Shown: positions 5,147 to 34,936, counted from the first letter of the stretch. The stretch: DNA of 34,936 nucleotides from Deltaproteobacteria bacterium (GCA_016208165.1 JACQYL010000023.1:5969-40904); one strand, 5' to 3'. The notes: a model not told the origin generated them from the letters alone. Numbers and translations are program-made.

Positions 5147-5147
5147 G

Positions 5148-5852
5148 TCATTTGCCTTTTCGTTTCTCGATTTCACGCTTTATGGTATTGATGCTCTTGG
5201 TCACAGGGATTTTTTTCGGACAGACACGTGTGCACTCGAAATGATTGACACACCCCCAAACGCCGTCGGGATTGTCAATTTGCTTCAACCTCTCTTCAAT
5301 CTTTTCGTCCCTCGAGTCGAAAATATATCTGAAAGCCCATACAAAGGGAGCCGGGCCGAGGTAGTTCCCGTTCTCAAAAGTGACCGGACAAGCCGCAACG
5401 CAGGAAGCACAAAGTATGCAACGGATGACTTCGTCCAGTTTCTTTATGTCTTCCGGACGCTGTTTTCGTTCATTCTCCGGCGGCGGCGTCTCGTTTATCA
5501 GGTATGGACGCATGCGTTCGACTCTTTCAAAGAACGGGTTCAAGTCCACAATCAGATCCTTGAGTATTCTGAAAGAAGGAAGTGGCTCCAATAGAATTTC
5601 TTCACCGCTGCAGTCTCTTATCAGCGTCTGGCATGCCAGAGCACAGCGTCCGTTGATCTTCATGGCGTCGGACCCGCAGATTCCGTGAGCGCACGACATC
5701 CGATAGCTCAAAGTACCGTCCTGCTCCCACCTGATCCGATTCAGACAATCCAGAATTCGCTCCTCCGGCTTGGTCGGCACGGTATAGGTTTTGTAGTGGG
5801 GTTTGGAATCGACGTCGGGATCGAATCGAAGGATTTTGAACCGCATTTCCAT
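5148..5852 (-). CDS. sdhB: Succinate dehydrogenase/fumarate reductase iron-sulfur subunit
   Basis: This 234-residue protein carries electrons between the flavoprotein and a quinone or other partner. The N-terminal half has the plant-ferredoxin-type 2Fe-2S site ([11 protein letters not shown], then a later Cys in RCALAC). The C-terminal half has the 4Fe-4S motif [12 protein letters not shown] and the second cluster motif ending in [10 protein letters not shown]. The length is normal. The ATG follows the flavoprotein stop by one base, so translation is coupled. No membrane-anchor gene (sdhC/D or frdC/D) is next to it in this window. Direction in the cell, succinate oxidation or fumarate reduction, cannot be decided from sequence. 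Confidence 0.93.
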
Positions 5853-5853
5853 A

Positions 5854-6273
5854 TCAGTACACCCTTGGTTTGGGTTCGAACCGAGTAATCTGAACCGGCT
5901 TGTAGGACAACCTTGGACCGGTCTCCGATTTTTCGGCGAGCGTGTGTTTCAGCCACTGATCGTCGTCCCGCTCGGGGAAATCCTCCCGATAGTGCGCGCC
6001 CCGGCTTTCCTCTCTCGCCAGGGCGCTGTCCAATATGACCTCGGCAAGCGTGAGAATGGACTCGAGTTCAAACGCTTCCAGTAGGTCCTGATTGTATGTT
6101 TCCCCCACGTCATCAAGGACCAGCCGGTCTGCACGGTCTTTCAGGGCGGCAACCTCCGAACGGGCTCGGGTCAGGCCTTCTCTATGACGGAAAACAGAAC
6201 AATGCTTCATCATGACAGACTGAAGGTCGCGCCGAATCACTCCGACACGTTCCCCCGATTTCCTGCTTTTCAT
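5854..6273 (-). CDS. sdhA: SDH flavoprotein C-terminal domain, separated by in-frame TGA
   Basis: These 139 codons encode the C-terminal helical domain of the SdhA/FrdA flavoprotein, with the family landmarks ESRGAHYREDFPERDD and the terminal YKPVQITRFEPK. It lies in the same frame as the larger part upstream: six codons counting the TGA separate that part's last residue from this ATG. Reading through gives a collinear protein of normal length (573 codons plus stop). The ATG has only a poor ribosome site, so independent translation is doubtful. The TGA falls in the variable linker before the ERVG..RRDLQ helix, where no catalytic selenocysteine is expected. A nonsense mutation or base error is the simplest reading; a split two-chain enzyme or readthrough is possible. 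Confidence 0.75.
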   Translation of the reverse strand: MKSRKSGERVGVIRRDLQSVMMKHCSVFRHREGLTRARSEVAALKDRADRLVLDDVGETYNQDLLEAFELESILTLAEVILDSALAREESRGAHYREDFPERDDDQWLKHTLAEKSETGPRLSYKPVQITRFEPKPRVY

Positions 6274-6288
6274 CTCGTTTATCCGGAC

Positions 6289-7575
6289 TCATACCGGTTC
6301 CAGTGGGTCCTCCGATAGCTCGATCAATGGCTGTTCCCGGGTCTCCTCAGCCATCTTGATGCCGGCCCTACGTCCGAAGACCACCAGATCCAGTAGGGAG
6401 TTACAACCCAGGCGATTGGCTCCGTGAACGGAAACGCAGGCGCATTCGCCCGCGGCGTAAAGACCGGAAATCGGATTTCCGTGAAGGTCCAGTGCCTGGC
6501 CATCCACATTGGTGGGGATGCCGCCCATCATGTAGTGACATGTGGGCGCAACAGGAATGGGCTGTCCGGCCGGATCGATTCCGAGATAAATCTTCACGAA
6601 CGAGGAGATTTCAGACAGCTTTTCCTCGAGTCGTTTCTCACCGATATGCGTGAGGTCCAGGTGTACAAAATCCTTGCCTTCAATGCCGCGACCTTCACGT
6701 ATTTCGGTATCAATGGCTCGGGAGACCACATCCCTGGCGGCGAGGTCTTTGATGGCGGGCGCATAACGCTCCATGAAACGTTCGCCGTCCGCATTTCGAA
6801 GTATACCACCTTCTCCACGAGCCGCCTCGCTTAGGAGAACACCAAGGCCGTAGATGCCGGTTGGATGAAACTGGATAAACTCCAAATCCTGCAGGGGGAT
6901 CCCCAAGCGGTAGGCCGAGGAGACCCCGTCACCCGTGTTCGCAAAGCAGTTGGAGGAGATCTTGAACAGTTTCCCAAATCCCCCGGTAGCCAGGAGTACG
7001 ATTTTACTACGAAATACATGGAGCCGGCCTGTAGCCAACTCATAGGCCGTCAGCCCCTGTACGCAGTCCCCGCTCCCTATCAGGTCAAGCATCTGGAATT
7101 CCGGATAGACGTGGATTCCTTTTCGAAGGACCTGTCCATAGAGCGTGTCTAGAATGACGCGTCCGGTTCGATCCGCCGCATGGCAGGCACGTTTTACCGC
7201 AGCCTTACCGAAATTGCTAGTGTGCCCTCCAAAGGCGCGCTGTGCGATTTTTCCGTCGGGTGTACGGTTAAACGGGACTCCAATATGTTCCAGTTCATAA
7301 ACGGCCCTTGGAGCGTCCTGGGCCAACACCTGAGCTGCATCCTGGTCGGTCAGGTAGTCCCCGCCCTTAACCGTGTCAAACATGTGCCATTCCCACGAAT
7401 CGGGTTCCTCGTTTCCCAGCGACGCGGCGATACCGCCCTGGGCCGCTCCGGAATGGGACCTGGTGGGAAAGACCTTGCTGATGAGAGCGAGATCGCACTT
7501 GCCCGCCAGTTCGACCGCCGCCCTCAATCCCGCCAGGCCTGACCCTACAATCACTACGTCATGTGTATGGATCAT
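6289..7575 (-). CDS. sdhA: Succinate dehydrogenase/fumarate reductase flavoprotein, main part ending at TGA
   Basis: The flavoprotein binds FAD covalently and interconverts succinate and fumarate. The 428-residue part contains the dinucleotide motif GSGLAGL near the start, the covalent-FAD His41 in [10 protein letters not shown], His237 in QFHPTG, Arg281 in RDVVSRA (the usual proton-transfer Arg), His347 in CHYMMGG and Arg388 in NRLG. The catalytic core is therefore complete; only the C-terminal helical domain is cut off by the TGA. The longer open frame upstream to 7740 overlaps citrate synthase and lacks homology; ATG 7575 begins [11 protein letters not shown] and has GGAGA upstream. The gene follows citrate synthase in the same operon. 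Whether a working enzyme is made depends on the TGA. Confidence 0.9.
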
Positions 7576-7699
7576 GAGATTCTTTCTCCGCCGGTAAAAG
7601 GCCGTCCTGAAAGGCGCATAACGCCTGCGCCCGTCCGAGCGACACTTCTCACCGTTTCGCTCATGGGAAGAACTGTAGCTCGCGTTCATCAACCCGGCG

Positions 7700-8596
7700 C
7701 TAACCCCTTCCCGCCAGCGGCTCGTAGGAACATCCCACAAGCCCGCAGTAATTACCTACGTATTCCGCTTTCGGTCGATACCTCGGGTCCATCGTTTTGT
7801 ACACGGCATGTCCCATGCCCATGATGCGCTGTCCCGAATCCATTTGCCGCCGTACCCATTGGGGGAGGTCTTTTTCCGACTCGAGCTCCAACAGCATCTT
7901 CATAACTCGAGCGTTTGCACCGCCGTGGAGGCTGCCCGAAAGCGCGCCGACCCCCGCCGCCACCCCCGCGTACATATGCGCCCGAGTGGAAACGACTTCC
8001 CGGCAGGCAAACGTAGAGGCGTTGAACGTATGGTCCGCGTGTAAGATCAAACAGACGTCCAGATCGCGGGCAACGTCCTCATCCGGTCTTCTTCCATGCA
8101 AGAGCCAGAAAAAATTAGCGGCGTGCGACAGTTTTTCATCCGATTTCAACGGTTCCAGACCTTGGCGGATTCTATGCCATGCGGCCATAGCAACGGGCAG
8201 CCGCGCTATGAGACGTTTGGCGATGCGCTCGTTGGCTTCACGGGATTCGCCGGAGACATCCGGATCGGACATGGCAAAGAGAGGCACGGTGGCCTGCAGC
8301 ACGTCCATGGGATCGGCGTCTTTAGGACACCTCTTGTAGCTCTCGTACACATAATCCGGCAGTTCGCGCGCTGCGATTATTTCCTGTTCGAATTCCCGGA
8401 GCGCGCTTCTCGAGGGCAGTCGACCGTTCAGTAATAGATAGGCCGTCTCGAGGTAGGTCGAGTTTGCGGCCAGTTCCTCGATGCGATACCCTCTATAAAT
8501 GAGGATTCCCTTTTCTCCGTCGATAAAGCTGATCTTCGTGTCCGCTACTGTGATACCGCGTAGCCCCACATTCTTTGTTCGAACCATCTCTGCCAT
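7700..8596 (-). CDS. gltA: Citrate (or 2-methylcitrate) synthase with internal deletion
   Basis: The enzyme condenses acetyl-CoA with oxaloacetate. The first 272 residues are normal: [11 protein letters not shown] near 186, SLHGGAN with His224, and [11 protein letters not shown] with His263. The next residues are YRPKAEYVG, a motif that normally lies just before the C-terminus. About 85 to 90 residues are missing between them, including the family's catalytic Asp (in the PNVDFYSA-type segment) and much of the small domain. The reading frame is kept and the C-terminal tail runs to a normal stop, so this is an in-frame internal loss, not a simple truncation; the family is usually 370 to 390 residues. 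The product should be inactive. The start has a GGGGG site, 18 bases after the aconitase stop. Confidence 0.88.
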
Positions 8597-8614
8597 ATCA
8601 ACCCCCTATAACGT

Positions 8615-10561
8615 CTATGCAGACGCATCCTCCAGTTTCTCTTTCACGTAATTCAATGCGCCGCCTGCGGCCAGAAGCTGTCTCTGGCGGGAAGACACAT
8701 CGAGCAACGCCGGAATTTCTGCTCCATCCACCACTACCGGTATTTCGTGATCGCCGTTCAGCACGTGTCTTCTCACCTCTGGGAAAATCACCTTGCTCCC
8801 CTTTTGAAAGCGGTCATAATCCCTGGGATTCTTGAATGTGAGCGGCAGGATTCCAAAATTACACAAATTCGCTTTGTGGATGCGCGCAAAGCTCTTCGCG
8901 ATTTTCGCGCAAACGCCGAGATACCGTGGCGCAAGGGCGGCATGCTCCCGGCTCGACCCCTGTCCATAGTTTTCACCTCCGACAACGACCGCCCGGCCCA
9001 TTTCCTTACACGTTTTGTGAAAATCAGGGTCCAGCTGCGAATACACGAACTCGCTGATAGCCTCGATGTTGGATCGAAGCGGCAGGACTTCGCTGCCCGC
9101 CGGCATAATGTGATCGGTAGTAATGTTGTCCCCGACCTTGATGGCCACGCGCGCCTCAATGGTCTCCGGCATGGATTCCATCCGGGGCAAAGATCGGATA
9201 TTCGGACCCCGGAGGATTCCCTCCTTTGAAGTTTGTTCGGAAGGAAACACGATCGAGGATTCGTCGACATGGTATTTTTCCGGGTCCTGGATACGTGGAT
9301 ACGCCATATCCTTGGCCAGATCCCGAGGATCGGTGATCACTCCTTTCAGAGCGGCGGCTGCCGCCGTCTCGGGAGAACACAGGTAAACCTTGTCATCCTT
9401 GGTTCCCGAACGCCCGGGGAAATTTCGAGGAAAAGTCCTCAAGCTGACTTGACCTGTTCCGGGCGCCTGCCCCATGCCGATGCATCCCAAACATCCCGAC
9501 TCATGGATGCGGGCTCCGGCCGACAACAAGCTCAAGGCGCCTCCCACCATGGTCACGTTTTCGATCACCTGTCTGCTGCCGGGGTTGACGTGAAACGATA
9601 CTTCCGGATGAACGTGTCGGCCTTCCAGCATGCGCGCAGCCACCATAAGGTCCCGGAATGAAGAATTCACGCTGCTGCCTATGATGGACTGGTGAACCTT
9701 GATACCGGCCACTTCCCTCACCGGCGCCACGTTTCCGGGCGATGAAGGGCAGGCTATGAGCGGTTCGAGGGTCGAAAGATCGATCTCGTCGGTTTCATTG
9801 TAATCCGCGTCCGCGTCCGGAGCGAGAGGCTTCCAGGCGCGTCCCCGTCCCTGTGCCTCGAGGTATTTTCGAGTATTCCCGTCCGAAGGGAAAACGGAAG
9901 AGGTGGCTCCGAGTTCCGTACCCATGTTGCCAATGGTCTCGCGGTCCGTGGCGGACAGAGTCATGAGTCCCGGTCCATAATACTCGACCACCTTGCCGAC
10001 GCATCCTTTCACGCCATAACGACGCAACATCTCCAAAATAACGTCTTTGGCGCTGACCCAGTCCGGGAGGCTTCCCGTAAGCTTGACTCCGAAAACTTCC
10101 GGACACGGCAAATAATATGGACGTCCGGCCATGGCCATGGCCACGTCGAGTCCTCCAGCTCCGATGCCCAGCATGGACACTCCCGCCGCTCCCGGAGAAT
10201 GACTGTCGGCGCCTAAAAGGGTTTTCCCGGGAACGCCGAAACGCTCCATGTGAACCTGGTGGGAAACGCCGTTTCCCGCCGGGCTGTAATGAATCCCATA
10301 ACGGGCGGATGCACTCTGAAGATAGGCATGGTCGTCCGCGTTTTTGAAATCGGTCTGGATAATGTTATGGTCAACATATTGCACGGCCAGTTCCGCCCGA
10401 ACGCGATCGATACCCATGGCTTCGAACTCGAGCATGGCCATGGTCCCCGTTGCGTCCTGCAACAGTGTGTGATCGATCCGTATGGCGATCTCTTCGCCGG
10501 GAATCAACTCTCCTTTCACGAGGTGATCCGCCAGAATCTTATACGTCAGACTTTTGCCCAC
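8615..10561 (-). CDS. acn: Aconitate hydratase, Aquifex/putative type
   Basis: A 648-residue aconitase that would isomerise citrate and isocitrate via cis-aconitate. The N-terminal domains are followed by DHTLLQDATG, GADSHSPGAAG, the cluster region ESGCLGCIGMGQAPGTG with two Cys ligands, and the swivel domain with NITTDHIMPAG and GENYGQGSSREHAAL. The length fits the short single-chain family. In place of the usual GSCTN segment with the first Fe-S ligand, the protein reads IGSSVNSSFRDL, so that Cys is Ser. A Cys in the preceding LIACPSSPGN stretch is a possible substitute. The start is GTG at 10561, preceded by AGGAG; an upstream in-frame ATG lacks family sequence. It is the first gene of the TCA operon. 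Confidence 0.88.
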   Translation of the reverse strand: MGKSLTYKILADHLVKGELIPGEEIAIRIDHTLLQDATGTMAMLEFEAMGIDRVRAELAVQYVDHNIIQTDFKNADDHAYLQSASARYGIHYSPAGNGVSHQVHMERFGVPGKTLLGADSHSPGAAGVSMLGIGAGGLDVAMAMAGRPYYLPCPEVFGVKLTGSLPDWVSAKDVILEMLRRYGVKGCVGKVVEYYGPGLMTLSATDRETIGNMGTELGATSSVFPSDGNTRKYLEAQGRGRAWKPLAPDADADYNETDEIDLSTLEPLIACPSSPGNVAPVREVAGIKVHQSIIGSSVNSSFRDLMVAARMLEGRHVHPEVSFHVNPGSRQVIENVTMVGGALSLLSAGARIHESGCLGCIGMGQAPGTGQVSLRTFPRNFPGRSGTKDDKVYLCSPETAAAAALKGVITDPRDLAKDMAYPRIQDPEKYHVDESSIVFPSEQTSKEGILRGPNIRSLPRMESMPETIEARVAIKVGDNITTDHIMPAGSEVLPLRSNIEAISEFVYSQLDPDFHKTCKEMGRAVVVGGENYGQGSSREHAALAPRYLGVCAKIAKSFARIHKANLCNFGILPLTFKNPRDYDRFQKGSKVIFPEVRRHVLNGDHEIPVVVDGAEIPALLDVSSRQRQLLAAGGALNYVKEKLEDASA

Positions 10562-10855
10562 TATTCTCTCCTCTCGGGAATCGAGCCGTCCAATCGGCCT
10601 TTGATCTTTTACAAGACGCATGCACGGAGCGGATAACGCCGGCGAGAACATCGGGCAAGGGAGCGACGCCCCGGTTTCCGTGCATTTCTTCGAAGACATG
10701 CAACATGAGGGTATTACTTTCTGAGACGATCAAATCACATATTTGGAGTGAACGCGAATGCTCATCTTTCTACCATAAGGAGGCGAAAACTCCCGGTCAA
10801 CCCCGGCGGAATTCGTTTTGCGCGATTTACGAAAGATGGCCCTTCGTCTGATTCC

Positions 10856-11529: not shown

Positions 11530-11595
11530 ATACGATTTCCCGCACCGGCGTCTTTTTGAACGGATGAAGGCTTCGCGGCCAAAGGAATGAAGACC

Positions 11596-12822
11596 ATGTT
11601 CGATTTTTTACTGAATGAAGTGGAACGAGCGTTCTGGGAAGAGGTTCGAACGTTTGTGAAGAACGACGTCCCCAGTCAGCTTGTTCGGGATCTGGATGCC
11701 GGAAATCTGGAAACCGGCCGACCTCTGATCGAGATGGCCGGTAAGAAGGGACTGCTTGGGCCCCGCTTCCCAAGCGAGTTCGGCGGACGTGATCTCAACT
11801 GGGCGGCGGAAGTGGCCGCTGTTGAAGAGGTGGGAGTTCTTGGAACTTCTCTTTCCTGCGCTTACGTGATGCCGAGCATTGTGGGGGAGGCCATACACCG
11901 TTTCGGAACACAGGAACAAAAAGTCAACTATCTCGAGCCCACAAACAAGGGGAAACTGTACAGCGCCGAAGCGCTGACCGAACCGAGGGGAGGATCGGAT
12001 TTTTTTGGCGCAACGACAACCGCGTCGCGTGACGGTGATTTCTTCGTGCTGAACGGAGAAAAGCGATTTGTGGTGGGCGCCGAGGATTCGGACTACTTTC
12101 TTGTGTATGCCAAATCCGATCCGGAAGCGCCGCCTCACAAGTCCATCAGCTGTTTTCTCGTGGAGCGTTCGATGGGCATCGACGTTCAGAAAATCTACAC
12201 CCTTATGGGCACGAGGGGGGGCGGCACCGGCCGGATTCGTTTTCGCGATACCCGGGTTCCCGTGCAGAACGTCGTAGGAACACTGCACAACGCCTATGAG
12301 ATCTTCAATCGAATGATGATTCCGGAGCGACTCTTGAGCGGGGCCGGAGCCATCGGACTCGGCCGGGCGGCCCTGGAGGTAGCGGCGCGCTACTCCACAC
12401 GAAGAAAAGCATTCGGAAGGACGATCAACAACTTCCAGGCCGTGAACTTTATGGTCGCCGACTCGGTGACCATGCTGGACGCGGCTCGTTCTCTCGTTTT
12501 TTCCGCGGCAAAGCTGGTGGACGCCGGCGGAGACGCGCGCCGTCTCGTTTCCGAAGCCAAGAAAGCCGGGACCCAATACGCGTGGGACGTTATCAACAAC
12601 GCCATGCAAATCATGGGAGGAATCGGTTACACCACGATCTATCCCATAGAACGTCTGATGAGGGACTGCCGGCTGGCTATGATTTGGACCGGAACGAATG
12701 AAGTCATGAACCTGATGATTCAACACGAGTATTACCGCGAGTTGGAAAGTGGAAAGTCGCTTTCCAGAGACGTGGAAGGGGACGCTCTCTCTCCGGAAGA
12801 GGAAGAAAAACATTTTGGTTGA
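11596..12822 (+). CDS. Acyl-CoA dehydrogenase with IVD/LCAD-type catalytic Glu
   Basis: An FAD enzyme of 408 residues that introduces a double bond into an acyl-CoA and passes electrons to ETF. The family segments are present: EALTEPRGGSD, LNGEKRFVVGAEDSDYFLV, RKAFGRTINNFQAV and QIMGGIGYTTIYPIERLMRD. At the usual C-terminal base position the sequence is IWTGTNE, with Thr where medium- and short-chain enzymes have Glu. A Glu is found instead in IPERLLSG (residue 244), the place used by isovaleryl-CoA and long-chain dehydrogenases. Branched or long acyl-CoA substrates are therefore plausible. ATG 11596 is chosen because AAAGGA lies nine bases upstream; an ATG at 11587 is the alternative. It follows the SCP2 gene in the same direction. 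Confidence 0.9.
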   Translation: MFDFLLNEVERAFWEEVRTFVKNDVPSQLVRDLDAGNLETGRPLIEMAGKKGLLGPRFPSEFGGRDLNWAAEVAAVEEVGVLGTSLSCAYVMPSIVGEAIHRFGTQEQKVNYLEPTNKGKLYSAEALTEPRGGSDFFGATTTASRDGDFFVLNGEKRFVVGAEDSDYFLVYAKSDPEAPPHKSISCFLVERSMGIDVQKIYTLMGTRGGGTGRIRFRDTRVPVQNVVGTLHNAYEIFNRMMIPERLLSGAGAIGLGRAALEVAARYSTRRKAFGRTINNFQAVNFMVADSVTMLDAARSLVFSAAKLVDAGGDARRLVSEAKKAGTQYAWDVINNAMQIMGGIGYTTIYPIERLMRDCRLAMIWTGTNEVMNLMIQHEYYRELESGKSLSRDVEGDALSPEEEEKHFG

Positions 12823-15233: not shown

Positions 15234-16415
15234 TTAATTAAAAATACCTTCCTGTCGCATCAGCTCGATTTCCTCTTCCGGATACCCCAACTCCGTCATC
15301 ACTTCCCGGTTGTGGGTACCCGGTTTGCAGCCGATGTGACGATAGTGGGGTGCGGTTTCCGAGAATTTGATTGGATGGGCCAATTGTCTGACGGTGGTTC
15401 CGCCTCCGGCCGGAACGGAGACGACCAGCCCCCGCGCTTCCGAATGCGGGCTCGTCAATGCCTCCTCTAATGAGAGGACCGGTTCAAAACAGGCGTCCAC
15501 ATCCCGGAAAATTCTCACCCACTCATCCCGCGTTTTCGAGCGTATGATCGCTCGCACCTCCTTTTTCACCTCCGAAAGGTTGCCCGGCACCACTCCGCCG
15601 GACACGAGATCGGGCCGGCCGATGGCCTCCAAAAAGGCGGCGGAAAACTTCGGCTCCAGACCGCCGAAAGACATGTATTCACCATCCGAAGTCTCATAGA
15701 AATCGTAGAGCGATCCACCGTTCAACAGGTGTTCTTCTCTTTTTGGACCAAGGCCGTCCACCAAAAAATCCGTTCCCGCAAGTGCATTGAAGGGCGCCAT
15801 GCAGTCAGTCATGGCAACGTCCAGGTGTTGTCCCTTGCCCGTGGCGTTTCGACAGAACACACCCGCCAAAATGGCGATGACCGCACTTTGAGACCCGCCC
15901 GCCAAGTCGGCCGCCTGAAACGCGGACAAGACAGGGCCTGTCTCCTTCCGTCCCGAATAGGACATCACGCCGGCCTGGGACAAATAGTTGATGTCATGTC
16001 CCGCCCTCTGTTCCATGGGCCCGTTCTGCCCATAGCCCGTCAAGGAACAATACACCAGTTCCGGATTCACGTGCTTCAGGCGGTCGTAGTCCAGTTCGAG
16101 TTTGGCCATGACTCCCGGCCGAAACTGTTCGATAAGAACGTCATACGTTTGGATCAGGCGATGGACGATCTCTTTGGATCGTGGTTTCTTGAGATCGAGC
16201 GTGATGGCCCGTTTACCGCGCCCCAGGTAAGCCAGTTTACTCGAAACGCCGGACGATCCGATAAACGGGGGAAGCAGTTCCACGAGGTCGGGCCGGGATC
16301 CGGATCCGGCCCGAAGCACATCCGCGCCCATATCCGCCAAGATGAGCGTTGCAAAAGGTCCCGGCAACAGTGTAGTGAAATCCAATACTTTTAATCCATC
16401 GAGCGGTCCAGGCAT
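15234..16415 (-). CDS. CaiB/BaiF family protein, probable alpha-methylacyl-CoA racemase
   Basis: A family III CoA-transferase-fold protein of 393 residues. The family N-terminus LDGLKVLDFTTLLPGPFAT is clear. The residues used by alpha-methylacyl-CoA racemases are all in place: His140 in RAGHDINYL, Asp170 in AADLAGG, and Glu254 in GGLEPKF, preceded by the YETSDGEYM segment. This favours a racemase, which inverts the 2-methyl stereocentre so that branched acyl-CoA can enter beta-oxidation, over a CoA transferase. The ATG has AGGAG seven bases upstream and a promoter is visible. It is a single-gene unit among acyl-CoA genes, consistent with branched-chain fatty acid use. Confidence 0.88.
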   Translation of the reverse strand: MPGPLDGLKVLDFTTLLPGPFATLILADMGADVLRAGSGSRPDLVELLPPFIGSSGVSSKLAYLGRGKRAITLDLKKPRSKEIVHRLIQTYDVLIEQFRPGVMAKLELDYDRLKHVNPELVYCSLTGYGQNGPMEQRAGHDINYLSQAGVMSYSGRKETGPVLSAFQAADLAGGSQSAVIAILAGVFCRNATGKGQHLDVAMTDCMAPFNALAGTDFLVDGLGPKREEHLLNGGSLYDFYETSDGEYMSFGGLEPKFSAAFLEAIGRPDLVSGGVVPGNLSEVKKEVRAIIRSKTRDEWVRIFRDVDACFEPVLSLEEALTSPHSEARGLVVSVPAGGGTTVRQLAHPIKFSETAPHYRHIGCKPGTHNREVMTELGYPEEEIELMRQEGIFN

Positions 16416-26547: not shown

Positions 26548-27912
26548 ATGGCAATGGACACAAAGGGGTTGAAAAGGACGAGAGTAGGGGTAATCACCAG
26601 GCGACAATTTATCAAAACTTCGTTGGCGGGCGCAGCAGCCGTCGGAGCAGGCGGTCTCGTCTTCCCGCGTTACGGAGCCGCGGAACAAAAGACGCTTAAA
26701 ATCCTCCAATGGGTCCACTTTGTCCCGGGCTACGACAAATGGTTCAACGAAACATACGTCAAGGAATGGGGTGCGAAGCACGACACGAACGTCATCGTGG
26801 ACAACATCGGATTGGCCGGTCTTAACGCTAGGGCGGCGGCGGAAGTCTCCGCGCAGAAAGGTCACGACCTGTTTATGTTCCTGTGGCCCAAGCCGGACTA
26901 TGAAGAACAAGTCATCGACCACAAGGAGATCTACGACGAGTGCATCAAAGATCACGGGAAACCCATCGACCTCGCCATCAAAAGCACTTTCAATCCAAAG
27001 ACCAAGAAATATTATGGTTTTTCCGACAGTTTCGTGCCCGATCCGGTCAACTACCGCAAGGATTTGTGGGACGCTGTTGGAATTTACCCGGACACCTGGG
27101 ATGACGTTCGAGCGGGCGGCGCGAAAATAAAACAACAATTCAACGTGCCGGTGGGGATCGGCCTGGCTTCGGAGATCGATACCAACATGGCCATGCGCGC
27201 GATCATGTATTCGTACGGATCGTCCGTCCAGGACGAGGAAGGCAACGTGGTCCTCAATTCCAAAGAGACCCTGGAAGCCGTCAAATTCGTAAAGGCACTT
27301 TACGACGAATGCATGACGGACGAGGTCTTCACCTGGGATGCTTCCTCCAACAACCGTTTTATGATTTCGGGCAAAGGATCGCTGGTCTTGAACGCCATTT
27401 CCGTGACTCGAACCGCGGAGAAGACGGACCCGGAAATGTCCAAGAAGATCTGGCTAGCCAAGGCATGCAAAGGACCCGTGCGCAGAATGGGGCTCGAGCA
27501 CGTCATGGACGTGTATTGTATCTGGAAGTTCGCCGAGAACATCGACGGCGCAAAGCAGTTCCTGGTGGACTACATCAAAAATTTCCGCAGCGGGTTCCTC
27601 GCGAGCGAATATTACAACTTCCCCTGCTTTGCCGGCACGGTCCCGGATCTTAAGCAACTGGTCGCGAATGACCCGAAAGCGGATCCGCCGGATAAATACA
27701 AAGTGCTCGAGGACGTTCTGGACTGGGCCACGAATGTGGGATACCCCGGTTACGCCAATGCGGCCATTGACGAGGTTTTCAGCACCTGGATCATCTCCAC
27801 CATGTTCGCCCGGGCCGCCGTAGGAAAAATGACGCCCCAGGAGGCCATAGGAGCGGCGGACAAGAAGGTGCAGGCGATCTTCGAGAAATGGCGGGCCAAG
27901 GGTATGGCCTAG
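26548..27912 (+). CDS. ABC transporter extracellular solute-binding protein (family 1), Tat-exported
   Basis: A binding protein of 454 residues for a CUT1-type importer. The N-terminus has a twin-arginine signal, ITRRQFIKTSLAGAAAVGAGG, so it is folded in the cytoplasm and exported through Tat, perhaps because it is membrane-released later or binds its ligand stably. The mature part has the extracellular solute-binding family 1 layout with LKILQWVHFVPGYDKWF, DLFMFLWPKP, YGFSDSFVPDPVNYRKDLWDAVGI, a long hinge, and a helix-rich C-terminus. AGGGAGG precedes the ATG. It heads a complete transporter operon. Sugars, polyols and glycerol-phosphates are typical ligands of the family, but some members bind aromatic or organic acids, so the ligand is left open. 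Confidence 0.92.
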   Translation: MAMDTKGLKRTRVGVITRRQFIKTSLAGAAAVGAGGLVFPRYGAAEQKTLKILQWVHFVPGYDKWFNETYVKEWGAKHDTNVIVDNIGLAGLNARAAAEVSAQKGHDLFMFLWPKPDYEEQVIDHKEIYDECIKDHGKPIDLAIKSTFNPKTKKYYGFSDSFVPDPVNYRKDLWDAVGIYPDTWDDVRAGGAKIKQQFNVPVGIGLASEIDTNMAMRAIMYSYGSSVQDEEGNVVLNSKETLEAVKFVKALYDECMTDEVFTWDASSNNRFMISGKGSLVLNAISVTRTAEKTDPEMSKKIWLAKACKGPVRRMGLEHVMDVYCIWKFAENIDGAKQFLVDYIKNFRSGFLASEYYNFPCFAGTVPDLKQLVANDPKADPPDKYKVLEDVLDWATNVGYPGYANAAIDEVFSTWIISTMFARAAVGKMTPQEAIGAADKKVQAIFEKWRAKGMA

Positions 27913-27926
27913 TGCATACCGTCGGC

Positions 27927-27943
27927 GCCGGACTGGAACCGGC
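27927..27943 (+). terminator. Hairpin after binding-protein gene
   Basis: GCCGG and CCGGC form a stem with a 7-base loop 15 bases after the binding-protein stop, in a very GC-rich gap that holds a further small CGCC-TGC-GGCG hairpin. Such structures often stabilise the binding-protein mRNA and reduce expression of the downstream ATPase. There is no T-run, so full termination is unlikely. Confidence 0.4.
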
Positions 27944-28086
27944 CCGCCTCCGCCTGCGGCGCCTGCTCCCAAGGACCGCTCCACACTGCAGGTTTTCCTG
28001 ACAACGTACCCATCATGTTTGTATCCCCTTGGGCGGACCCGGCCCAGGGGGATCTGGCGCGAATTCAGCTGACCATTTGGCGCATT

Positions 28087-29133
28087 ATGGAGGAGATGTT
28101 GGCCATAGTAGAAACGCGAGGACTCGAAAAGCGGTTCGGTGACGTGCCGGCTGTGGATGGAATTGACATCACCAGCGGGGAAGGCGAATTTCTCGTCCTT
28201 CTGGGTCCATCGGGGTGTGGCAAGACCACTCTGCTGCGAATGATCGCCGGACTGGAAAAACCCACGGCCGGAGATATCATGATCGGTGGGAGGGTGGTCA
28301 CCCACCTGCCGCCCAGGGCGCGAGGCATAGCCATGGTCTTTCAAAGCTATGCGCTATACCCCCATATGTCGATTTTCAAAAACATCGCTTTCCCGCTCAA
28401 AGCGCACGGAGCCACCAAGGAAGAGATCAATCGGAAGGTATTATGGGCGGCGTCCATGTTCCGCATCGAGCACCTGCTCAATCGAAAGCCCCGCGCCCTA
28501 TCCGGAGGAGAACGGCAGCGCGTGGCTCTCGCGCGAGCCCTGGTGAGGGAACCGAACGTCTTTCTCCTGGACGAGCCGCTATCGAATCTGGACGCCAAGC
28601 TTAGGACATCGGCTCGGGAAGAACTCTATCGGTTCCAGAAGGAGATTGCCATTACCACCATATATGTAACCCACGACCAGGTCGAAGCCATGGGCATGGG
28701 TGACCGTATCGCGGTGATGAACGGGGGAAAAGTGCATCAGTTGGGATCCCCGGTGGATGTCTATACCGAACCGATCGATACCTTTGTAGCCGGTTTCCTC
28801 GGTTCCCCTCCGATGAATCTCGTAGACTTTGAAGATCGGATTGTGGGCTTTCGACCTGAATGCTTTCTTCCCCGGGAGATGTACCAGGGACGCGGGGACC
28901 TGGTGCAACTTCGTTTCCTGGTCAAGCGGATCGAGGAACTGGGATCGGATCGGCTTGTATATGGCAACCTCGAGGAGCGATTCAACTGCGCCCACGTGAT
29001 TGCCAGTCTACCTACCAGTTTTACTCACTACTCCGTGCTAACCGGCGCTACTTACCACTTCGCCGTGCCCAACGGAAACGTGAAATTCTTCAGCAAACAG
29101 ACGGGACTTCGCACGAATGCTCTACCGATTTAA
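28087..29133 (+). CDS. ABC transporter ATP-binding protein, MalK/UgpC type
   Basis: The motor subunit of the importer, cytoplasmic, about 348 residues. Walker A GPSGCGKTT (residues 40-48), Q-loop FQSYALYPHM, signature LSGGERQRVALARAL (from 138), Walker B VFLLDEPLSNLDA, and the switch His in VTHDQVEAMGMGDRIAVM are all present. The C-terminal TOBE-like domain is present but its sequence is divergent. The start is unclear: ATG 28087, ATG 28096 and TTG 28099 lie around a GGAGGAG; the TTG has the best spacing. An earlier in-frame ATG at 28015 lacks a ribosome site and family sequence. The permease gene begins ten bases after the stop. Confidence 0.93.
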   Translation: MEEMLAIVETRGLEKRFGDVPAVDGIDITSGEGEFLVLLGPSGCGKTTLLRMIAGLEKPTAGDIMIGGRVVTHLPPRARGIAMVFQSYALYPHMSIFKNIAFPLKAHGATKEEINRKVLWAASMFRIEHLLNRKPRALSGGERQRVALARALVREPNVFLLDEPLSNLDAKLRTSAREELYRFQKEIAITTIYVTHDQVEAMGMGDRIAVMNGGKVHQLGSPVDVYTEPIDTFVAGFLGSPPMNLVDFEDRIVGFRPECFLPREMYQGRGDLVQLRFLVKRIEELGSDRLVYGNLEERFNCAHVIASLPTSFTHYSVLTGATYHFAVPNGNVKFFSKQTGLRTNALPI

Positions 29134-29142
29134 GGAGGTGGA

Positions 29143-30087
29143 ATGGCCACTGGCGGCAGACGAGCAGGAGAAGCGGCCTTGGGCGGGAACAGCCGCCTAA
29201 GCCTGCTGGTGGATAACGAAAAGATACTCGGCTTCCTGATGATCGCACCGGCGGTGGCCTACGTCTTGGCCCTGGTCGGCTATCCCCTGGTGCTGGCCTT
29301 TATTTATTCACTCAGCGACATGACGGTGGGCAGTACGCACTTCAACTTCGTCGGCTTGAAGAATATCAAATACATTATACAGGACCCCGAATTCCAGACG
29401 GCCGTCAAAAACACGCTTCTGTTTACGTTCGTTTCCCAGCTCATCGTAATCGTTCTGGCCAAAATCTTGGCGCTGCTTCTGGTGAAGGATTTCAAGGGAA
29501 AGTTTTTCGTTCGCGCCCTTATCCTCATGCCTTATGTGGCCCCGATTTCCCTTGGGGTGATCGGTTGGTTGTGGATGCTGGACTCGATCTACAGCCCCAT
29601 CAATTGGCTACTCCAGCACACGGGGCTTTTTGGTCCCGACTTCTGGCCCATGTGGTTGGGGAAACCGGACCTGGCCATGACCTCCATCATAACGGTTCAC
29701 GTGTGGCGTATGCTGCCTCTGGCCACGGTCATTATCCTGGCCGGACTCTGTTCCATCCCCCAGGATATCCAGGACGCGGCCCTCGTTGACGGAGCAGGCT
29801 ATTTTCGGCAGCTGTTTCAGATCACCATACCCATGATGCTTCCCATCATCATGGTGGCCGTACTGTTCGGGATCGTATTTACGGCAACGGACATCATTAT
29901 CATTCTGGTGCTGACAAGGGGGGGACCCTACGATTCAACACAGGTTCTGGTCAGCCAGGCCTTTTATACGGGTATCGATGCGGGCGACTTGGCCCAGGGA
30001 GCGGCCATTGCTCTGTTTCTCTTTCCACTTCTTCTGGCCGTTGCCATATTCATGCTGCGGATAGCGCGAAGAGCGGAGGTTGCCTGA
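29143..30087 (+). CDS. ABC transporter permease, MalF/UgpA type
   Basis: An inner-membrane permease of 314 residues with six predicted membrane segments, the first at about 30-55. The coupling EAA-type loop reads IPQDIQDAALVDGAGYFRQLFQITIPMMLP, typical of CUT1 importers. The N-terminal 25 residues are polar and cytoplasmic. A very strong AAGGAGGTGG site overlaps the end of the ATPase gene, so these two are translated together. It pairs with the following permease to form the transmembrane channel. Confidence 0.93.
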   Translation: MATGGRRAGEAALGGNSRLSLLVDNEKILGFLMIAPAVAYVLALVGYPLVLAFIYSLSDMTVGSTHFNFVGLKNIKYIIQDPEFQTAVKNTLLFTFVSQLIVIVLAKILALLLVKDFKGKFFVRALILMPYVAPISLGVIGWLWMLDSIYSPINWLLQHTGLFGPDFWPMWLGKPDLAMTSIITVHVWRMLPLATVIILAGLCSIPQDIQDAALVDGAGYFRQLFQITIPMMLPIIMVAVLFGIVFTATDIIIILVLTRGGPYDSTQVLVSQAFYTGIDAGDLAQGAAIALFLFPLLLAVAIFMLRIARRAEVA

Positions 30088-30088
30088 T

Positions 30089-30946
30089 ATGAACACAAAA
30101 ACTGATCTTCTCAAAGAAATCGTCAAGAATATCACACACTACGTTGTTTTGGGGGTTTTCGCGCTCTTCGCCAGCCTGCCCTTCCTGTGGATGCTGATTA
30201 CCACCTTCAAGACGGACGCCGATCTCTACAACCGCGCCAATAATCCTTTCTTTTTCAACCAAGCGCCCACGCTGGCGCATATCGAGCACCTGTTTACCGA
30301 AACGATGTTTTTTCAGTGGCTGCTGAACACGGCCATTGTGGGCATAAGCGTGGTTGCCATTACTCTGGCATTGGCCATTCCGGCCGGATACAGTCTCGTG
30401 CGTCTCGGAGGTCGAACAGGGGAAAAACTCGGCATCGTGATATTTCTCACCTACCTGGTTGCTCCGACCATCCTGTTCATCCCCATGTCGCGCGTGATTG
30501 CGGAACTGGGTCTGCAGGATTCGCTCTGGTCCCTCATACTGGTATTCCCCTCCTTCACCATACCGTTCGCCATATGGCTTCTTATGGGTTTTTTCAAAGC
30601 CATTCCGCAGGATCTCGAGGAAGCCGCCATGATTGACGGCTACAGTCGACTGGGTGCTTTCATCCGGATGGTCATCCCGATTTCGAAATCGGGAATACTG
30701 ACGGTGGTCATTTTTAGTTTTACTCTCGTGGTGCAGGAATACATCTACACCCTGACCTTCGTTACGTCCGCCTCCAGATACACGGTGAGCGTCGGCGTGC
30801 CGACGTTTCTGGTGCATGGGGACGTGTATAATTGGGGTGCGCTCATGGGAGGGTGTCTCATTGCCTCCCTACCCATCGCCATTGTCTACAATTTCTTTGT
30901 GGACCGGTTTATAGGCGGACTGACTCTCGGGGCCGTGAAGGGGTGA
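30089..30946 (+). CDS. ABC transporter permease, MalG/UgpE type
   Basis: The second inner-membrane permease, 285 residues and six membrane segments. The EAA loop is IPQDLEEAAMIDGYSRLGAFIRMVIPISKSG. The N-terminus is short, as in MalG. ATG 30089 follows the first permease's TGA by one base and has GGAGG nine bases upstream, so an in-frame TTG at 30080 is not preferred. It closes the importer operon. Its last 38 bases overlap, on the opposite strand, the 3' end of the UPF0280 gene, so the two transcripts converge and could interfere. Confidence 0.93.
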   Translation: MNTKTDLLKEIVKNITHYVVLGVFALFASLPFLWMLITTFKTDADLYNRANNPFFFNQAPTLAHIEHLFTETMFFQWLLNTAIVGISVVAITLALAIPAGYSLVRLGGRTGEKLGIVIFLTYLVAPTILFIPMSRVIAELGLQDSLWSLILVFPSFTIPFAIWLLMGFFKAIPQDLEEAAMIDGYSRLGAFIRMVIPISKSGILTVVIFSFTLVVQEYIYTLTFVTSASRYTVSVGVPTFLVHGDVYNWGALMGGCLIASLPIAIVYNFFVDRFIGGLTLGAVKG

Positions 30947-31790
30947 ACAGTCGCTGCGGATCAAAGACGGCCCGATCCGACTGGACGGCAATCAGGCAGC
31001 CTCGGATGAGCCCGGCCTGGAACAGTTCGGCGGCCGCGTCCATTCCCGCCTGGAGTGCGACGCGCCTGGCAGTGGGGGATAAGTTACCCACATAAGACAC
31101 TACGGGTTTGTCTTTCAGGTCGCTGCGGGGATCCAGCTCACATGCCGGATGCCGCACCACTTCGGAGGATTCCGCGTATACTGCGTTGGCCAGGGCGGTC
31201 GCTGCCGCATCGGCCAGGCCGGCGGTAACGGTCCATACGGTGACCAGGTCCGCCAGGCCGAGGGAATGGCTGCGCCCCTGCCAGCCGCTCGAGGCCACAC
31301 CCCCGACGCCATCCCCGGACGGCACGCGGAGCCTGCCCAGAATCGGCTCATCCGCAAGGCTTCCGAACCTGCGTATCTGCTTGATACCCACCCGGGCCTG
31401 TTCACCCGCTTTGAGACGTAACGCGATGTCTCCTCCATTATTGACGATCACCCTGTCCGCGCCCAGCTCCCACGCCCGATCCGCCACCTCGTCGGCCACG
31501 GCGCCGGCCACGGAAGCCAGGGGCGTGAGTTCCCGTCCCACAACGGCAGCCGCATCTCTCGCCCTGGCAACTACTCTTGGGAGGGGCCGATCCCGAGGAA
31601 GCTCGACAACCGGTTTCTTCAGGTATTCCTGGAAATCCGCCAGCGTGGACAGGCAACCCAAGGCCGTTCGAGCGGACCTTGCGGCGATGACCGGTCGGGG
31701 AACCCCTCCTTCCCATGCCGATATGCTCAACGTCATGGGGCCCCAGTCCACCAGAACAAGGTCTTCTCTCAGGACCCGGATCGGTTCCAA
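30909..31790 (-). CDS. UPF0280 family protein (ApbE-like fold)
   Basis: A protein of 293 residues resembling UPF0280, a family with an ApbE-like fold and unproven function. Landmarks are TPLASVAGAVADEVADRAWELGADRVIVNNGGDIALRL (the NGGD segment), VASSGWQGRSHSLGLADLVTVWT, and GLADAAATALANAV. A further 60 residues at the C-terminus are not usual in short members. The start chosen is TTG 31790 with AGGAG eight bases upstream; it overlaps the stop of the reductase-like gene by about 20 bases, and a longer frame from 31910 has no homology. UPF0280 often occurs beside 6-hydroxynicotinate-reductase-like genes and molybdenum hydroxylases, as here; a role in cofactor or flavin attachment is a guess from the fold. 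Confidence 0.82.
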   Translation of the reverse strand: MEPIRVLREDLVLVDWGPMTLSISAWEGGVPRPVIAARSARTALGCLSTLADFQEYLKKPVVELPRDRPLPRVVARARDAAAVVGRELTPLASVAGAVADEVADRAWELGADRVIVNNGGDIALRLKAGEQARVGIKQIRRFGSLADEPILGRLRVPSGDGVGGVASSGWQGRSHSLGLADLVTVWTVTAGLADAAATALANAVYAESSEVVRHPACELDPRSDLKDKPVVSYVGNLSPTARRVALQAGMDAAAELFQAGLIRGCLIAVQSDRAVFDPQRLFTPSRPRESVRL

Positions 31791-33295
31791 GGCACGGGCT
31801 CCTGTGTACGGAATGGTTTGATGGCCTCGACGTGTCCTCCCATCTTCGCGTAATCGCTGCGCCGCATGGTGTATTCGATGGGAGCCACCGTCGCCGGGGT
31901 GGGCACCCACGAAAAGGCGCCGGGTTTAACCCGCTCGACATCAACGTAAAACGTGATCCCGCCTCCCGGCAGCACGAATACCGGCGCGCCCCCGCAAGTA
32001 AGGTTGGCGAGAGCCGAATGCACGGCAAGGGTCAGACGTAAGGGATAGCGGACCACGCCTGCTCGGGCCGAGCCGCCCACCCCACCCACATAGACCGCCG
32101 ACACTCGAGAGTCCTGGCAGGATTCGGCGATGGCGGCCACAGCCTCTTCGGCCGCCGGGGTAAGCTCCACGGGTTCGAACACACCTTCATCGCTGAGCAC
32201 GTATAGGGCGGCTTGTCGGCCCGTGGTTTCCGTAATCAGCAATGTGGCGCCGGGCCTGGTGATTGAAGTGTCCACCGATTGGACTACATCCAGGGGATCG
32301 GAAAGGCCTGTGCCGCCCCAACCACGCCCGGTGGCGCCGAAATAGCGGCCGGGGGTGGATACGGGGAACGTCAGTTTAAGGCCTGAAGGTGCAACCCCCA
32401 GACATCGACCCGCAGCGTGGTGAGTAAACAACGAAGTGATGTGGTGGTCCAGCACAATGACTTCGTCCGCGGCCTTTTCCAGGAACGTCCCAAAAAGACC
32501 CGCCGTGGCGGATCCGCATCCGACGCGCATCTTTTCGGCCGTCCGGCCGTCGATTACCGGTGGCTTGCCCACCTGCACTTTCATCTTGGCTCCGTTTTTC
32601 ACGGATAGCTCCACCGCCTCGCGGTTGGCAATGGCCGCCACGGCGCGGGCGGCGGCGAACCCGCTTTTTCCGGTGAGCCGGTTCACACCGCCGATGGCCA
32701 GAATCTTGGACCCGTACTCTTCGGTCTCCACCATTCCCACGACTCGCCCGTCGAAGCGTACATCAGCGCCTTCTTTTCCTACATCGAGGTCCGTGTCGAT
32801 TTTGAGTTTGATTCCGGAATAGCTCAACGGAGCTTCCGTGACCACGGTAACCACGTCAACGCCGTCACGTTCATCGCTGACGATGTAGGGAGCAGGCACG
32901 TAATCCGGGTAGGTTCCGCCGGCTCCTATGGCTGTCAACAGCGGCCTGCGGATGATTCTCTCCGTTTCGACGCCCACCACGTCAATGACTTCGTCGAAGG
33001 TGAGCAAAGGTCTGTTTCGCTTCAGTTCGCCACTTCGATTGGTGAAACGATGACAGGCGCCGGTGAGTCCCTCGGGTATTCGGCAGTTCACCGGACAGAC
33101 GTTGCAGACCACCTCCCCTTCCACGGAAAGCGCAAGCTCTTCAACCGCTTGCCGGGGACAGACTTTCAAACAGGTCCGGCATTGCACGCATGTCTCGCCG
33201 ATCACCGCTTTCTTGGCTACCACAGCGACGGCCTCCATGGGGCAGTCGCGCACGCATAGGCCGCAGCCGTTGCATCGTTCGGCGTCTATCTTCAT
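31769..33295 (-). CDS. 6-hydroxynicotinate reductase-like iron-sulfur protein
   Basis: A 508-residue protein with an N-terminal two-cluster ferredoxin domain, CNGCGLCVRDCP and CVQCRTCLKVCP, followed by a third Cys set CNVCPVNC..GAC and a large domain with VNRLTGKSGFAAARAV, HHITSLFTHHAAGR and GRGWGGTGLSDP. The layout matches what I know of the 6-hydroxynicotinate reductase family, which reduces the pyridine ring during anaerobic nicotinate breakdown in Eubacterium. The start is ATG 33295, overlapping the molybdenum hydroxylase stop (ATGA) with GGGAGG upstream; the frame continues upstream as a shadow of that gene. Its substrate here is unknown and the family name is only an analogy. Confidence 0.72.
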   Translation of the reverse strand: MKIDAERCNGCGLCVRDCPMEAVAVVAKKAVIGETCVQCRTCLKVCPRQAVEELALSVEGEVVCNVCPVNCRIPEGLTGACHRFTNRSGELKRNRPLLTFDEVIDVVGVETERIIRRPLLTAIGAGGTYPDYVPAPYIVSDERDGVDVVTVVTEAPLSYSGIKLKIDTDLDVGKEGADVRFDGRVVGMVETEEYGSKILAIGGVNRLTGKSGFAAARAVAAIANREAVELSVKNGAKMKVQVGKPPVIDGRTAEKMRVGCGSATAGLFGTFLEKAADEVIVLDHHITSLFTHHAAGRCLGVAPSGLKLTFPVSTPGRYFGATGRGWGGTGLSDPLDVVQSVDTSITRPGATLLITETTGRQAALYVLSDEGVFEPVELTPAAEEAVAAIAESCQDSRVSAVYVGGVGGSARAGVVRYPLRLTLAVHSALANLTCGGAPVFVLPGGGITFYVDVERVKPGAFSWVPTPATVAPIEYTMRRSDYAKMGGHVEAIKPFRTQEPVPWNRSGS

Positions 33296-34936
33296 GGACG
33301 GTCGACCTCCCGCCCCGAGTTCAGAGCTTCCATGATTCTCTCCAGAGAGATCGGCAAATGCCTCATCGGCCTGCCGATGGCACGGCTCACGGCTGATGCC
33401 ACCGCCGGCGCCGTAGGAATGAGCGCCGGCTCGCCGACGCCCTTGGCGCCGAAGGGCCCGGTCTCTTCCGGCTCCTCGACGATGAACGGGGTTACCCTGG
33501 GGGCGTCCGCACTCGTGGGGATGTGATAATGTTGCAGGTTTTCCGTGCGGCCGGTCTGGAAGTCCTCCATTAACGCCATGCCGACGCCCATAAGCACCCC
33601 TCCGCATATCTGTCCCGTTACGGCCCGTGGGTTCACGGCCCGGCCCACGTCATGCGCCGCCGCCACCTCCGATACATGGGTCATTCCCGAGGCCGTGTCC
33701 ACGTTCACCCGCGCACATTGGGCCGCAAAGGCGTACGTGGCGTAGGGTCTGCCCTGCCCGGTTTCCGGATCCAACGAGGTGACATTGGGGTCGAATCTGC
33801 CGTTGCCCTTGATGATCTTGCCTCGCCCGGTCATGACCCGCACCACTTCATTAACGTCCATGCAAACATCCGGGTCGTCCCGGCTCACGACGTGATCGCC
33901 TTTCAGCTCGAGTTCCAAATGACGGCGGCCCAGCACTTCGCGTGCGCCATCGAGGATCCTCATCTCGAGATTATCCGCGGCAGCCAACACCGCATTACCC
34001 GATATGTACGTCTGGCGGCTCGCCGAAGTGGCGCCCGACGACGTGGTACGATCCGTGTCTCCACGGCAGAGCTTGATTCGATCCGGCTCGAGTCCAAGGC
34101 GCGTCGCCGCCAATTGGCGCAAAACCGTGTCCGACCCCTGACCGATGTCCGCCGCGCCGGTGTAAAGGATCAGCTTGCCTTTCCGTGTCCATTCGAGCTG
34201 GGCCGTGGAAGGATTCGAGACCCCTGTGTTGCCGATGCCATAAAACATGCCCGCCACACCGACCCCCTCGAGTCGGTTCCGGTCGGAGGTCGCTCGACGT
34301 CGCCAGTTTTCGTAGATGGGCCGGATTTTTTCCAGGCATTGGACCATGCCCACCCCGCTCTTGAGCAGTTGGCCGGTGGCGGTACGGGATCCGTTACGCA
34401 GGGCGTTCAGCACACGAATCTCCAACGGATCCATGTCCAGGCGGCGAGCCAGTGCATCCATCTGCCCTTCGTGCGCCAGAGCCGCTTGAGGCACCCCAAA
34501 GCCCCGCATGGCTCCGTTCCAGGCATTGTTCGTATAAGCCATGCGGCAGCGAACGTGCACATTAGGGACAACATAGGGACCCGTGGCGTGAACCGCGGCC
34601 CTCGCATTCACGGCCGACCCATACGATGCAAAAGCCCCCGTGTCCGACAGCATGTCCGCTTTCACGGCGGTAAGTCGGCCCCGGTCGTCCGCTCCGGTAG
34701 TGAAGCGCATGCGAAACGGGTGTCGCTTGGCCGTGGCGACAAAAGACTCTTCTCTTGTGAAACACATGCGAACAGGTCTGTGGAGATGCCACGCAGCCAG
34801 AGCAAGAAAAGGCTGCACGGACAGGTCCAGCTTTCCTCCGAACCCGCCCCCGGTTTCCGCCTGCACCACCCGTATCCTCTCGACCTCCACCCCGAGGAAC
34901 AACGCCAGATCCTCCCGGTCATAGTGAGGATTCTGG
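33292..34936 (-). CDS. Xanthine dehydrogenase family molybdenum-binding subunit, 5' end outside window
   Basis: The C-terminal 547 residues of a molybdopterin hydroxylase large subunit; the gene enters from the right edge, so its N-terminus is not seen. The enzyme hydroxylates a carbon in a heterocycle or aldehyde using water, with electrons leaving through FeS and FAD subunits that would lie upstream. Visible motifs are QNPHYDRED at the edge, AETGGGFGGKLD, AMRGFGVPQ, GAADIGQGSDTV and GAKGVGEPALIP with the catalytic Glu. The visible part is unbroken. Its stop overlaps the ATG of the 6-hydroxynicotinate-reductase-like gene, strongly indicating coupled translation. Xanthine, nicotinate and other substrates are possible; the neighbour points to a pyridine-type ring. 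Confidence 0.92.
   Translation of the reverse strand, partial: QNPHYDREDLALFLGVEVERIRVVQAETGGGFGGKLDLSVQPFLALAAWHLHRPVRMCFTREESFVATAKRHPFRMRFTTGADDRGRLTAVKADMLSDTGAFASYGSAVNARAAVHATGPYVVPNVHVRCRMAYTNNAWNGAMRGFGVPQAALAHEGQMDALARRLDMDPLEIRVLNALRNGSRTATGQLLKSGVGMVQCLEKIRPIYENWRRRATSDRNRLEGVGVAGMFYGIGNTGVSNPSTAQLEWTRKGKLILYTGAADIGQGSDTVLRQLAATRLGLEPDRIKLCRGDTDRTTSSGATSASRQTYISGNAVLAAADNLEMRILDGAREVLGRRHLELELKGDHVVSRDDPDVCMDVNEVVRVMTGRGKIIKGNGRFDPNVTSLDPETGQGRPYATYAFAAQCARVNVDTASGMTHVSEVAAAHDVGRAVNPRAVTGQICGGVLMGVGMALMEDFQTGRTENLQHYHIPTSADAPRVTPFIVEEPEETGPFGAKGVGEPALIPTAPAVASAVSRAIGRPMRHLPISLERIMEALNSGREVDRP

Follow-up and report, generated by a model that had tools for sequence, protein, structure and literature searches.

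Genes of a probable anaerobic nicotinate catabolic cluster in a dsrA-bearing deltaproteobacterium and the Hnr-linked subfamily of UPF0280 proteins

A 34,936-nt stretch of DNA from a Deltaproteobacteria bacterium (GCA_016208165.1 JACQYL010000023.1:5969-40904; the whole stretch is referred to here as the window) carries at its right-hand end three overlapping genes, all on the minus strand, which encode a molybdenum (Mo) hydroxylase, a 6-hydroxynicotinate reductase (Hnr) with a fused ferredoxin domain and a UPF0280 protein. Judged by homology, this unit is very probably (about 85%) the right-hand end of a near-complete cluster for the anaerobic catabolism of nicotinate (vitamin B3), and the host, a dsr-bearing anaerobe, is a probable sulfate reducer. 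The window's contig, C23, terminates at the right-hand edge of the window, so the remaining part of the cluster was invisible to the first-pass annotation; it is located on another contig of the same genome, C60.

The close packing of the three genes, with overlapping stops and starts, had been noted in that annotation and is confirmed. The ATG of hnr overlaps the stop codon of the Mo-hydroxylase gene as ATGA, and there is a 22-nt overlap between hnr and the UPF0280 gene. The first gene (33292..34935, 5′ end missing) encodes a putative nicotinate dehydrogenase molybdopterin subunit of the fused NdhL+NdhM type, with MoCoBD_1/2 domains; its best matches in the PDB are the large and medium subunits of nicotinate dehydrogenase (3hrd_A/B), covering residues 1-205 and 223-539. 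The 508 aa Hnr is encoded at 31769..33295, and its N-terminal 2[4Fe-4S] ferredoxin-like domain, recognised by Pfam Fer4, at 33133..33274. The gene of the 293 aa UPF0280 (COG2122) protein, identified with PRK04334, occupies 30909..31790 and has a TTG start. A longer UPF0280 open reading frame, from 31910, was rejected as an artefact of the overlapping frame, because the related proteins begin at the same MEPVQV.. position.

A search of the same genome with the Mo subunit of a relative located the N-terminal part of this subunit at the start of C60, where the remainder of the gene is found on the minus strand (L082:1-972). The ends of C23 and C60 overlap by 355 bp and are 98.6% identical. One strand of C60 carries the genes of a tripartite ATP-independent periplasmic (TRAP) importer (DctP, DctQ and DctM), a [2Fe-2S] subunit and an FAD subunit; genes for a helix–turn–helix–cupin regulator, an enamidase, a DUF1185 protein and an aldehyde dehydrogenase (ALDH) are divergent. 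Thus, the FeS and FAD subunits and the enamidase, which the first-pass annotation had suggested looking for further to the right, are all present on C60. The dehydrogenase subunits on C60 were matched by FAD_binding_5, Fer2_2 and MoCoBD, and the enamidase matches 2VUN over its full length (E=4e-135). The ALDH is nearest to methylmalonate-semialdehyde dehydrogenase (MMSDH); its catalytic Cys lies in SGQRCLG and, in the MMSDH alignment, it has LNGNGKN at the site where hydrolytic ALDHs carry Glu. Hgd, Mgm and Mii are not encoded beside hnr on C23 or C60, where the ALDH is found instead; the search for them was confined to these two contigs. The genome also contains dsrA, and sulfate or sulfite reduction is therefore likely.

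Gene content and homologies are observed directly, and from them we infer the substrate and the enzyme activities of the following route. The TRAP transporter would bring in nicotinate, the three-subunit molybdenum dehydrogenase would convert it to 6-hydroxynicotinate and the ferredoxin-fused Hnr would reduce the latter to 1,4,5,6-tetrahydro-6-oxonicotinate. The enamidase would open the ring, yielding 2-formylglutarate and NH3. Finally, the presumably CoA-acylating, MMSDH-like ALDH probably decarboxylates and oxidises 2-formylglutarate to glutaryl-CoA, which would then be oxidised completely. Since 2-formylglutarate can be regarded as a malonate semialdehyde bearing a substituent, MMSDH chemistry would give glutaryl-CoA and CO2; this probable step agrees with the glutarate route reported for Azorhizobium (PMC3511419). 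The proposal in the first-pass annotation that the unit hydroxylates and then reduces a heteroaromatic ring is supported by the enzyme homologues as regards both hydroxylation by the Mo enzyme and, by analogy with Eubacterium barkeri, ferredoxin-dependent reduction. A class III CoA-transferase encoded in the window (15234-16415) is nearest to the succinate-glutarate CoA-transferase model, below its cut-off, and could relate to glutaryl-CoA, although its gene is 15 kb away.

Homologues of Hnr were identified in 20 genomes of a 60-genome search (the window's own included), at 22 loci in a genome collection, some of them from the same genomes, and on 26 plasmids. The same gene set occurs in Desulfarculaceae, Syntrophobacteraceae, Peptococcaceae and proteobacterial plasmids; the recurring neighbourhood comprises Ndh subunits, Hnr, UPF0280, enamidase, DUF1185 and an importer, which is of the TRAP type in most anaerobes and mostly an ATP-binding cassette (ABC) transporter on the proteobacterial plasmids. 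The end branch consists either of the MMSDH-like ALDH or of a B12 mutase with a dehydratase resembling the succinate dehydrogenase (SDH) alpha subunit (L062, L064 and L065), and none of the loci examined has both. Searches also found, in L062, an E. barkeri-type 2-hydroxymethylglutarate dehydrogenase (3CKY-like) and a 3-methylitaconate isomerase (3G7K-like); members of the same clusters occur in L064 too. UPF0280 and DUF1185 are present with either branch, so that their place of action is probably at 2-formylglutarate or earlier in the pathway. In the window's genome, the gene of the DUF1185 protein ('amino acid synthesis', PF06684), which accompanies Hnr clusters with either end branch, lies on C60 (L082:7324-7920), with a second copy at G000:C2:37705-38229; the closest structures, 2qtp and 3byq, are both uncharacterised.

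The window's Hnr shows 43-47% identity, in alignments covering 85-88% of the protein, with proteins encoded on plasmids, of which most annotated ones are named 6-hydroxynicotinate reductase. Its ferredoxin domain contains eight Cys residues (C8-C46) and aligns with ferredoxins over residues 1-54 with a VIA-align Z of up to 9.6; such a domain is present in the Hnrs of anaerobes and absent from aerobic plasmid Hnrs. The core has no Pfam model, and no curated hidden Markov model matched it in Pfam and NCBIfam searches. The invariant residues are those of CxxCPxxC..GACxR (C64, C67, C71 and C81), C260 and C393. A fold search with the Hnr model gave a clear match for the ferredoxin domain only; the core, with Z up to 3.8 (T-protein), may still have a known fold. 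Hnr shares a look-alike motif, VDVVT..T..P(L/M)(S/C).SG, with DUF39/COG1900 (HcyBio) proteins. Distant homology between the two was considered and not adopted, the hhalign E values of 0.03-0.09 lying amid those of unrelated decoys. Scans of IMG/VR found no relatives of Hnr and one very weak match to HcyBio; on the plasmids searched, there was no HcyBio.

The UPF0280 gene is tightly linked to hnr. Among the 33 unique hnr clusters with enough flank, UPF0280 directly follows hnr in 28, with a gap of -22 to +82 nt, and two more, of the 30 possessing the gene, hold it elsewhere in the cluster; the adjacency is far beyond chance. The window's protein scores 204 bits against PRK04334 (E=3e-60); the equivalog cut-off, 290 bits, was reached neither by it nor by any relative searched. 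Strong matches to this model (136-237 bits) were found in 19 of the 20 genomes with Hnr and in two of the 40 without it (Fisher p 2e-12, uncorrected for shared ancestry); in all three exceptions (G033, G037 and G043), a fragment at a contig end is involved. Of 20 HcyBio-containing genomes, 19 have a weaker subfamily (58-79 bits), which occurs in none of 20 genomes without HcyBio. Three genomes (G003, G022 and G038) contain Hnr and the Hnr-type UPF0280 and gave no HcyBio match. The phylogenetic tree splits the two UPF0280 groups at 100/100 and unites the Hnr-linked proteins of Thermodesulfobacteriota, Bacillota and Pseudomonadota in one group (100/100). The window's genome carries both subfamilies; it has further Mo-hydroxylase loci, whereas its UPF0280 genes number only two, and UPF0280 is thereby linked to Hnr and not to molybdenum enzymes. 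Taken together, these comparisons make it fairly likely that the protein is a dedicated accessory of Hnr and belongs neither to the Mo enzyme nor to homocysteine synthesis. Copies of the gene were seen on a plasmid of Hydrogenophaga sp. BPS33 (L056), where UPF0280 at 741-1794 and 11550-12603 is flanked by IS1071 elements and, in each case, a 42-aa remainder of the Hnr C-terminus precedes it, with four tblastn places in the record; here, a nicotinate-type cluster has apparently been cut and multiplied by a transposon.

The structural model of the UPF0280 protein (pLDDT 92.8) has the ApbE T-fold, with Z values of 20.6 to 2o34 (DVU1097), 17.4 to 7mgt (Treponema pallidum Ftp) and 16.8 to 7esa. Profile alignment with ApbE (hhalign) gave E=2e-10 and a probability of 97%. 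Residues common to both subfamilies are N118, GGD (119-121), S168-G169, G172, S174, D194 and T198; at position 173, the Hnr line has R and the homocysteine line has H. The conserved site, NGGD / SG..G[RH]S / ADxxAT, most likely delivers or assembles a cofactor, which may be a flavin or an Fe-S/sulfur species.

Several observations weigh against this overall picture. The join of C23 and C60 has 5 mismatches in 355 bp, and the genome is a metagenome-assembled one with 4.4% contamination. The C60 ALDH scores 358.9 bits, under the MMSDH family cut-off of 448.5. Three clusters with enough flank (L038, L045 and L049) have no UPF0280 nearby. The HH[IV][IV][ND]PxTG (HHxxxPxTG) segment of ApbE is absent from the aligned UPF0280 region, and the ApbE target motif [ST]GA[ST] occurs in 0/36 Hnrs. 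As to the substrate, the specificity of Mo hydroxylases varies, and NCBIfam models for xanthine or 4-hydroxybenzoyl-CoA enzymes also matched, below cut-off, so another N-heterocycle, such as a purine or an alkyl-pyridine, might be degraded instead of nicotinate. This is improbable, however, given that the best matches of all three proteins, Hnr, enamidase and the Mo subunit, are nicotinate enzymes of the E. barkeri type and that further E. barkeri steps are present in relatives. The first-pass annotation also pointed to the neighbouring CUT1-type ABC importer (26548..30946, plus strand), of a sugar-type family, as a possible supplier of the substrate. According to Pfam and NCBIfam, it comprises a substrate-binding protein with a twin-arginine translocation (Tat) signal, an ATPase and two permeases. 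Only physical adjacency speaks for such a role. The importer genes run convergent to the Hnr unit, with an overlap of 38 nt (30909-30946) between the stops of the UPF0280 and permease genes, the binding protein and both permeases have zero tblastn matches in 36 loci (relatives' clusters and C60), and TRAP genes lie within the cluster itself. The CUT1 importer is thus unlikely to belong to the nicotinate system and is apparently part of another unit; that it supplies the substrate is hardly plausible.

For the UPF0280 protein, a role as a maturation or cofactor factor of Hnr is probable on the basis of its sequence and model: the ApbE fold is kept but both HHxxxPxTG and the [ST]GA[ST] target are missing, and a general role of this kind is therefore favoured. 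The suggestion in the first-pass annotation that UPF0280 helps assembly or acts on a cofactor was a good guess, which linkage and co-occurrence now support. Two more specific roles are about equal rivals, each of them rather unlikely. The Hnr of E. barkeri carries a covalent flavin, and the window's UPF0280 might be a true ApbE-like flavin mononucleotide (FMN) transferase, attaching flavin covalently to Hnr. The fold (Z 17 to Ftp/FmnB), the hhalign match to ApbE, the retained metal-site residues D194 and T198 and the fact that PF02424 touches two Hnr-linked UPF0280s are consistent with this; the two absent motifs argue against it, as does the homology of COG2122, which stops short of the flavin-binding region (PMC5764234). 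Alternatively, UPF0280 might be a carrier of sulfur or persulfide whose target in Hnr is an Fe-S centre or a Cys, a role like that suggested for MA1715/COG2122 and DUF39 enzymes. Homocysteine formation needs COG2122 alongside DUF39 and NIL/ferredoxin (PMC5764234), MA1715 is described as a sulfur trafficking protein (PMC12068725), both partner enzymes are ferredoxin-linked and the active-site residues are common to the two subfamilies. Hnr, however, is a reductase with no sulfur transfer, no invariant Cys is present among the conserved columns of Hnr-linked UPF0280s and hhalign detected no Hnr–HcyBio homology. The co-occurrence, the subfamily split and the predicted fold are direct observations, from which we infer an effect of UPF0280 on Hnr that fits a maturation or cofactor role.

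Other parts of the window were read as well. The CUT1 genes (26548-30946), including that of the Tat-signal binding protein, are located downstream of genes for an acyl-CoA dehydrogenase and a crotonase. A minus-strand block at 3770-10699 encodes, by reading of the translations only, tricarboxylic acid cycle proteins, namely fumarase, fumarate reductase/SDH subunits, citrate synthase and aconitase.

Such clusters are already known from E. barkeri and Azorhizobium/Bradyrhizobiaceae (PMC3511419), and the system is not, as the first-pass annotation supposed, an undescribed one. With the nicotinate fermentation of E. barkeri (Ndh, Hnr, Ena, Hgd, Hmd, Mgm, Mii and Dmd), it shares homologues of nicotinate dehydrogenase, Hnr and enamidase, and the relatives L062 and L064 share also those of Hgd, the B12 mutase, the dehydratase and Mii. 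Unlike E. barkeri, the window's organism has fused NdhL/NdhM, a TRAP importer and dsrA, and its cluster shows the MMSDH-like ALDH instead of the mutase branch. The likeness to the Azorhizobium/Bradyrhizobiaceae cluster lies in catabolism via glutarate. The proteobacterial plasmid relatives differ in having Hnr without the ferredoxin domain, often a ferredoxin-NADP reductase nearby and mostly ABC importers. The genes are candidates for a role in the oxidation of nicotinate by sulfate reducers and for a route from 2-formylglutarate to glutaryl-CoA.

The statement in the first-pass annotation that UPF0280 has no proven function is outdated, since Desulfovibrio requires COG2122 to synthesise homocysteine (PMC5764234). 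Genetic work on COG2122 covers both Desulfovibrio and Methanosarcina (PMC5764234, PMC12068725); the family shows genetic phenotypes, but there is no consensus on its biochemical role. This role becomes testable in a clean assay with a subfamily that goes with a single definable enzyme in genomes for which the homocysteine partner was not found. A joint reading can be offered tentatively, with some doubt: UPF0280 may be an ApbE-fold maturation family split into Hnr and homocysteine (DUF39) lines with the same undescribed cofactor-installation chemistry, and sulfate reducers may mineralise nicotinate via a new, MMSDH-like branch from 2-formylglutarate to glutaryl-CoA. The COG2122/UPF0280 proteins that act with DUF39 (DVU1097, structure 2O34, and MA1715) have the same fold and share NGGD / SG..G.S / ADxxAT; the Hnr-linked proteins form a separate subfamily with GRS for GHS, follow Hnr and occur also in genomes where HcyBio was not found. 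With the flavin transferases ApbE, Ftp and FmnB, UPF0280 shares the T-fold and the metal-site Asp/Thr, and it lacks HHxxxPxTG. The unit is thus largely of a known kind, to which the present analysis adds an apparently complete cluster in a dsrA-bearing genome, an alternative end branch and the split of the UPF0280 subfamilies.
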